From positions 1 through 63,144 of the forward strand of contig VXNP01000090.1 in the NCBI GenBank assembly GCA_009840525.1: a stretch of 63,144 nucleotides of DNA, read 5' to 3'. The DNA comes from Gammaproteobacteria bacterium. GTDB taxonomy: Bacteria > Gemmatimonadota > Gemmatimonadetes > Longimicrobiales > Gaopeijiaceae. Shown here piece by piece: positions 16,771 through 18,497 of this stretch (positions within the stretch are counted from its first letter, which is position 1; each line of letters opens with the position of its first letter). Made by a program: the position numbers and the translations under genes. The notes beneath the pieces were generated by a model. That model ran no database searches. It was not told where the DNA came from and saw only the letters and a program-made list of their open reading frames with translations.

Positions 16771-17814
16771 TCACGCGCCGCTCCCCGCATCGACGCGGAC
16801 CACTCCTTCCTCCACCACGAGTTCCTGAACGCGCTCCGCCTCGTCGAACAGGAAGGGCCAGCGGCCCGACGCCCCGTCCGCCAGCCGCACGCGCCGTATG
16901 CCGTCCAGCGAGAGGGGCCTGCCCGACTGAACGACGGCCGGACCCGTCGCCTCGTACATCCAGACCGCGCCGCCTCGCACCGAGGACACCCGGTAGCTGT
17001 CGTCCTCGATCTCCAGGGCCGCCCCCTCATCGATCCCGATCCCGACGAAGGAGCCCGAGCGGTCCTCAGCCAGCAGGCGCCCGAGGAACGCGAGCAACCG
17101 CCCCTCGCGGGAGCGTTCCGTGAAGTGGGAGTCCACGATCATGTTGCGAAGCTCGGGCTGGGGCATGCCGGATGGCCCGACGCTGACCGAGACACCCGCC
17201 GGGTCCGCGAGGGCTTCGGCCGATGTGACCGTACCGTGCCGGGCATCGAATGCGGCCTCGCCCATCGAAACCGCCCCCGCGCTGGTTCCGCCCATGGCCG
17301 CGCCGCGCTGCCCTGCCTCCCTGATGGCAACGTGGACCGATTGCGGCCATCGCCCCAGATAGTCCCACTGGCTTCCACCCGCGAGCCAGATCGCTTCCGC
17401 TCTGTCGAGGCGGCAGAGGACGCTGGGATGGTCCGCCAGCGGAGGGGTGTCGGTGCGGATCGTGGTCACCGAGGCCGGGTGCGGGCTGGGACTCAACTCG
17501 GCCGAGAAGTAGTCCGGATAGCTGGTCAGCGATCCCGTCGCGCGCAACACAACGATGTCGCCTCCGGCAGCCGCTTCCGCGAAGCGCCGGGCGGCGCCGT
17601 CCTCCTCCGGACCGCCTCCCATGAGCACCAGCCGCCGCACGGGAGACGGGGTAGCGTCGGCCCCGCTGCCCGTAAGGCCTCCGATCGTGGTGCCCGCGCC
17701 CGGTTCGGGGCAGCCCTCGCGCGGACCTTCCAGCGAGGTGATCAAGCCGGACTCGGCGCACGTTGCGAGGGCTGGCACGGCGGCCAGACTGACGAGCGCC
17801 ATCGCGATTCTCAC
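16771..17814 (-). CDS. Exported cyanophycinase-like S51 peptidase
   Basis: This 347-residue protein has the S51/cyanophycinase nucleophile elbow GGTSAGAVSMG (Ser178), the earlier LMGGGPEEDG and AIWLAGGSQWDYLG motifs, and a late GIGIDEGAALEIE. The first 20 residues form a signal peptide, perhaps a lipoprotein signal with Cys19 in ALATC, so it probably acts outside the cytoplasm. The family hydrolyses beta-aspartyl or related isopeptide bonds; cyanophycin itself need not be the substrate. GTG 17814 overlaps the stop of the upstream MerB-like gene as GTGA, so translation may depend on ribosomes finishing that gene. It converges with the aminotransferase gene across 9 bp. Confidence 0.85.
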   Translation of the reverse strand: MRIAMALVSLAAVPALATCAESGLITSLEGPREGCPEPGAGTTIGGLTGSGADATPSPVRRLVLMGGGPEEDGAARRFAEAAAGGDIVVLRATGSLTSYPDYFSAELSPSPHPASVTTIRTDTPPLADHPSVLCRLDRAEAIWLAGGSQWDYLGRWPQSVHVAIREAGQRGAAMGGTSAGAVSMGEAAFDARHGTVTSAEALADPAGVSVSVGPSGMPQPELRNMIVDSHFTERSREGRLLAFLGRLLAEDRSGSFVGIGIDEGAALEIEDDSYRVSSVRGGAVWMYEATGPAVVQSGRPLSLDGIRRVRLADGASGRWPFLFDEAERVQELVVEEGVVRVDAGSGA

Positions 17815-18497
17815 GACGTATGAAGCTGCCAGAAGGAGCCTTCGAGGCCCGCCTCCCGCAGGAGAGCCTGCTTCGACTCCGCCGAAGAGGGGCGCCAGTG
17901 GTCGTGGAGCCTGCCGGCATACCACCCCCGGCTCAGCTCTCCCAGCGTCTCGAGCGGCACCGTCGCGCCAAGGTCGACGCCCCGTGTAACCGCCCACCGG
18001 GCCGCATCCGCTTCCGACCGGAAGGCCACGATGTTGCGTCAGGTGAAGCCGATGTCGTCCCAGAAGTGCCGGGCCGGTACGGGGAAGCGGACTACGGCGC
18101 CATCTGCGGGTTCAACACGCCCGTCGGCAACCGACAGGTCGATGGGAGCACCGGACTGGGGACAGGTAGTCGGTGTCCGCCCGTCCACATCGAGGAGCAG
18201 CGGGATCGCGAGCGCGTCCCAGGCGCAGTTGGCCCAGTAGTCCGTCCGGGGGGTACGCACGCGGAAGGGCGTTTCCACGGCGGAAAAGGGATGGGCCATC
18301 CACACCTCGCCCGCCTCGTCCAGAACCAGAACGTGCGCGTCTGCCAGGAACGCGAGAGCTTGATCCACTTCGCCCGCCGCCGCGCCCAGTCCCTCCCCCA
18401 GTTCCGCACGACCGGGGACGAGCCCCGAATCGCGGATGCGCCGGTACAGATGGCCGCGCAAGCGCCACGCGAGGGCATCATCCCGGCTTTTCTTCAC
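17811..18497 (-). CDS. MerB-like (alkylmercury lyase family) protein with in-frame UGA at the catalytic Cys: candidate selenoprotein
   Basis: Reading from GTG 18497, residues 1-152 and a further 75 residues after an in-frame UGA (18041-18039) form one continuous alkylmercury lyase-family protein of 228 residues. The active-site pattern of MerB (in E. coli plasmid MerB, Cys96, Asp99 and Cys159) is seen as NCAWD with Cys91 and Asp94, and as FWDDIGFT-U-RNIVAFRSE, where the UGA falls exactly where the second catalytic Cys is expected. The sequence after the UGA keeps family character (FRSEADAARW) and ends in GTGA overlap with the next gene. A hairpin suited to be a SECIS lies just after the UGA. 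MerB cleaves carbon-mercury bonds by protonolysis; homologues without mer genes nearby may act on other substrates. Alternatives are a nonsense mutation or a sequencing error (TGC or TGT to TGA). No SelA/B/C/D gene is in this window. Confidence 0.78.
18005..18041 (-). promoter_or_regulatory. Candidate bacterial SECIS element after the UGA codon
   Basis: On the minus strand the UGA (18041-18039) is followed 19 nt later by the apical loop GGTC, closed by a perfect 5-bp stem CTTCC/GGAAG (18011-18024). A second helix CATC/GATG (18030-18033 with 18005-18008) extends it below a 5/2-nt internal loop. A G in the apical loop about 20 nt after the UGA is what bacterial SelB-dependent SECIS elements require. 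The structure was found by eye; folding energy was not computed. Confidence 0.6.

Follow-up and report, generated by a model that had tools for sequence, protein, structure and literature searches.

A MerB-like protein family with predicted selenocysteine at the Cys159 position in Gemmatimonadota and Chloroflexota

The organomercurial lyase MerB, with Cys159 among its essential residues, is the standard textbook example of an enzyme that breaks down methylmercury. SaoL, a member of the 'selenocysteine-assisted organometallic' system, was reportedly described by Haft and Gwadz in 2023 from Clostridioides difficile and others. It is the one MerB-like selenoprotein included in the 2022 and 2026 selenoprotein reviews, and its motif consists of Cys and Sec side by side, 'CU' (PMC13188914). 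MerB2 (PDB 5C17) and the MerB-like 99Ser/117alt variants (PMC8261052) carry a single Cys at the 159 position. Surveys of mer genes drop sequences without Cys159 (PMC8261052; PMC12874090), and in one of them MerB was reported from one Gemmatimonadetes and seven Chloroflexi genomes only (PMC8261052).

In the window (the whole 63,144-nt stretch of DNA that was analysed), a MerB-like gene occupies positions 17811-18497 of the minus strand; with its internal TGA read as Sec it comprises 229 codons, from a GTG start to a terminal TGA at 17813-17811, and encodes a 228-aa product in which residue 153 is Sec. The earlier note had proposed that the frame is broken solely by the UGA at 18041-18039, that this UGA falls at the second catalytic Cys of MerB, that the first active-site motif is intact, that coding continues for 75 residues past the UGA and that the gene ends in a GTGA overlap with the next one, and all of this was borne out. 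Codon 153 (18039-18041, minus strand) is the sole internal stop and aligns with Cys159 in the alignment to R831b MerB (C160S) and MerB2, in agreement with the codons of the homologues; NCAWD is found at residues 90-94; 75 sense codons separate the internal from the terminal TGA, and the latter overlaps the GTG of a peptidase S51 (cyanophycinase-like) gene (16771-17814, minus strand; Pfam Peptidase_S51, E 8e-7). Interruption by a single TGA is by itself a weak pattern, with 105 long frames of this kind in the GC-rich window, and the verdict that the gene product is very probably a real selenoprotein of the MerB superfamily rests for this reason on the homologues.

The Pfam MerB model (PF03243) matches residues 71-193 (E 4.3e-26; 91.8 bits against a gathering score of 27), and the gene is its only match in the source genome. 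The AlphaFold model, computed with residue 153 as Cys and with a homologue alignment that left out two plasmid-record rows, reached pLDDT 96.1 and pTM 0.92; the 11 PDB structures matched at E <= 0.001 all belong to MerB or MerB2, the top seven with Z 14-18, led by Hg-bound MerB2 (Z 18.1, rmsd 3.6, 191 residues). The protein shares with MerB (R831b; NF033555/PRK13239; PDB 3F0O, 3F2F) the fold, the equivalents of the catalytic triad and that of the structural Cys117. C91, D94 and U153 are the counterparts of Cys96, Asp99 and Cys159: Cys91 (codon at 18225-18227, minus strand) and Asp94, which corresponds to the proton donor (18216-18218, minus strand), are each present in 56/56 Sec-type proteins, and Cys112 (18162-18164, minus strand), the equivalent of Cys117, in 51/56. 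In the canonical MerB residue set, Cys96, Asp99 and Cys117 have their equivalents in C91, D94 and C112, and the fourth residue is Sec, not Cys159. The protein also differs from MerB in having Arg, Ala or Ser at the Cys160 position, in an identity of 21-26% in structure alignments and in the lack of a mer operon, and the NCBI MerB models score far under their cut-offs (41.5 against 200 bits for NF033555; 47.8 against 193 for another). SaoL (NF040728) is likewise a predicted selenoprotein of the MerB superfamily; in contrast to its 'CU' motif, the motif here is T-U-[R/A/S] (Thr152-Sec153), with no Cys adjoining Sec, and no SAO-type neighbours were seen. In this comparison, made by profile score and listed motif, the SaoL model (cut-off 140) gave 37.4 bits and covered only residues 37-130. 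MerB2 and the MerB-like variants resemble the Cys-type relatives of the present protein in their single Cys at the 159 position but differ from its Sec-type relatives, which have Sec there and keep Asp where the 99Ser group has Ser99. The Sec-type proteins form a branch separate from and larger than SaoL, apparently undescribed in the available literature.

The reading favoured here, and considered highly probable, is that of a selenoprotein with SECIS-directed Sec153, most likely with MerB-like chemistry and with methylmercury or another organomercurial as the leading substrate. SelB with Sec-tRNA(Sec) would decode the UGA at 18041-18039 as selenocysteine, directed by a GGUC-loop hairpin starting 14 nt downstream; Sec153 would then stand in for MerB Cys159, with Cys91 and Asp94 of the triad kept. 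The Cys91 thiolate and the Sec153 selenolate would hold the metal of an organometal, or another soft electrophile, Asp94 would protonate the leaving carbon, and cellular thiols would take the product away. A MerB-like working of the protein is most likely because Cys, Asp and Sec are kept at the three catalytic positions, and the proposal draws on the published mechanism of MerB (PMC4525700); from this analogy we infer that methylmercury or another organomercurial would be the leading substrate. The broader proposal is more tentative, its chances falling slightly short of even: that selenium-dependent organometal lyases of two phyla, with Sec for Cys159, break down methylmercury or some other organometal in the absence of both a mer operon and canonical MerA, and would be missed by surveys that require Cys159.

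A substrate other than an organomercurial has a modest though appreciable probability; the selenoprotein may act on another soft electrophile or organometal (organoarsenic, organotin, an electrophilic xenobiotic), or may bind metal without cleavage. Mercury binds selenolate very tightly, and this could slow product release. The genomic context also points in this direction, since neither a shared partner nor mer genes were found among 65 neighbours in the Pfam scan, the neighbours differing by lineage. In the neighbour survey, other lineages do not have the peptidase S51 gene conserved next to the MerB-like gene. An apparent conserved operon obtained by ORF clustering was rejected, the clusters being mostly shadow frames of GC-rich DNA. 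No MerA above the cut-off was found in the source genome; the best two matches, both below it and without the C-terminal Cys pair, resemble lipoamide dehydrogenase and a MerA-like flavoprotein, and were rejected as MerA. Against a non-mercury substrate, however, the full MerB triad is retained, with Sec only at Cys159, and the lack of MerA is compatible with mercury as the substrate because about half of the merB-bearing genomes in a large survey are without merA (PMC8261052). Methylmercury or another organomercurial is kept as the leading substrate of the predicted selenoprotein.

Protein searches identified relatives in 40 of the 121 genomes of the same family, in 66 of 395 sampled genomes of the phylum and in 23 of 400 sampled Chloroflexota genomes, and eight named records were taken from a contig collection (six Gemmatimonadetes, one Gammaproteobacteria of doubtful label and one Chloroflexia). 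Among the 109 sequences covering position 153, the codon is TGA in 84, TGC or TGT in 25 and any other codon in none; the first set contributes 68 TGA and 17 Cys codons, and the Chloroflexota set 16 and 8. The figure of 84 counts loci rather than independent genomes: among them are a repeated Chloroflexia locus, a Rubrobacter plasmid copy in partial decay, and named MAG records duplicating genomes of the other set. The TGA copies occur in both Gemmatimonadota and Chloroflexota, at identities as low as ~30%. The earlier note had looked to an alignment of homologues for Cys at the UGA position and a conserved UGA in close relatives, and this is the pattern obtained: intact close relatives all have UGA, and distant ones UGA or Cys. 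These data make it very improbable that the UGA acts as a true, regulated stop and yields a functional 152-aa product, or that it is read through with an ordinary residue such as Trp; annotation pipelines do end the protein there, as in the Rubrobacter plasmid copy annotated as 89 aa, but the non-UGA homologues invariably have Cys there, and neither Trp nor Arg nor a truncated end occurs; the hairpin downstream is lost wherever Cys is encoded, and conservation extends over the C-terminal 75 residues, W168, W192 and G217 among them.

The putative bacterial SECIS, CTTCC-GGTC-GGAAG, lies at 18011-18024 of the minus strand (+17 to +30 from the T of the UGA). Its stem is of 5 bp (+17 to +21 with +26 to +30), and its loop, GGUC at 18016-18019 (+22 to +25), is placed ~19 nt past the TGA, close to the ~20 nt at which a hairpin with a G-containing loop had been claimed; the geometry falls within the bSECIS limits on loop, stem and spacing published in PMC13188914. 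A stem of at least 4 bp with a loop opening in GG is present in 70/70 distinct intact TGA sequences versus 0/24 Cys sequences, and would be expected in 22% under random synonymous recoding. The loop codons are invariant (Arg160 CGG in 56/56, Ser161 TCG in 52/52; diversity zero against ~2.1 bits expected), and besides the neighbouring Phe159 codon no conserved column approaches this synonymous freeze; the +16/+31 pair directly below the stem is U-A or C-G, with many mismatches too. The argument for a SECIS is one of conservation and not of energy, because the stability of the hairpin in its context is unremarkable (z ~0 against shuffles). The value of -7.6 kcal/mol in a 30-nt context, against a bSECIS limit of -7.5, was obtained with a different fold from that of the conserved hairpin, and energy, being no better than in shuffles, was dropped as evidence. 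Rfam and tRNA scans of the 63,144-nt window gave no matches. SECIS-directed Sec insertion at codon 153 appears strongly supported by these comparative data.

The base in question is really A, as it is the same in dozens of independently assembled genomes, and the read error that the earlier note had named as a possible refutation is set aside. A pseudogene, or a TGA produced by sequencing or assembly error, has a negligible probability and was refuted, since frames with one in-frame TGA are common by chance in GC-rich DNA but this one is shared by 84 homologues from two phyla and separate assemblies, with frozen synonymous sites and, downstream of the TGA, a dN/dS far under 1. Among close relatives this ratio is ~0.19-0.47, similar to or somewhat above that of the part before the TGA, and is affected by the frozen SECIS sites, which lower dS there. 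Purifying selection after the TGA indicates that the C-terminal third is translated and needed.

The selenocysteine machinery on which the earlier claim depended is present in the source genome (98% complete), which holds a tRNA-Sec on contig C112 (68 bits; ARAGORN SeC), SelA (520 bits), SelD (308 bits) and SelB (308 bits), selB being cut by the contig end. Among family genomes of at least 90% completeness, tRNA-Sec is present in 28/28 gene-bearing versus 31/45 gene-lacking genomes (Fisher p 5e-4, a figure inflated by shared ancestry). It was not found in 3 of the 40 gene-bearing family genomes, these three being 81-83% complete, or in a Chloroflexia MAG (L029; a 2.3-Mb assembly of unstated completeness).

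The Sec form is spread over both phyla, with ~4 Sec/Cys changes in the tree to which Chloroflexota were added, the deep branches of the Sec/Cys trees being weak. A single origin of Sec, suggested by a first tree with Sec on one side of a branch, was dropped after this addition. The Asp94 position is Cys in 13/13 Cys-type relatives examined, and CxWC replaces CxWD in the Cys relatives of Gemmatimonadota and in two proteobacterial plasmids. In these plasmids, from Paraburkholderia and Sphingomonas (L065:3001-3687 and L066:2992-3675), and in L095-L103 and L109, all Cys-type relatives with Cys at the position of the catalytic Asp99, the site contains three cysteines (CxWC ... C), unlike that of canonical MerB. 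With predicted Sec at this position in dozens of species, natural Sec/Cys pairs make the effect of Se for S on Hg-C cleavage directly testable. Gene callers terminate the Sec-type proteins at the UGA. Because mer surveys that require Cys159 also exclude them, what may be a reservoir of demethylators in these two phyla, Gemmatimonadota and Chloroflexota, would be invisible to both.

Some individual records deserve mention. On the Rubrobacter radiotolerans plasmid NZ_CP007515.1, the 89-aa 'organomercurial lyase' annotated at 103195-103464 (L068:1435-1960) stops at the equivalent UGA position (FA*ANILL); this copy is without a hairpin after the UGA, its sequence looks frameshifted, and it is probably a decaying gene. 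A MerA-like flavoprotein (GGDCLNFGCVPSKA; L113, G000:C108:34946-36322) is without the C-terminal vicinal Cys pair and scores below the MerA cut-off. The MAG record JAPPJO010000090.1 (L025), labelled Gammaproteobacteria, has a gene 86% identical to that of the window and a protein identical to those of the same-genus genomes G008 and G009, and its label is probably wrong. In one assembly the gene is split across two contigs (L044, G012:C137:8-499, and G012:C24:21818-21991).
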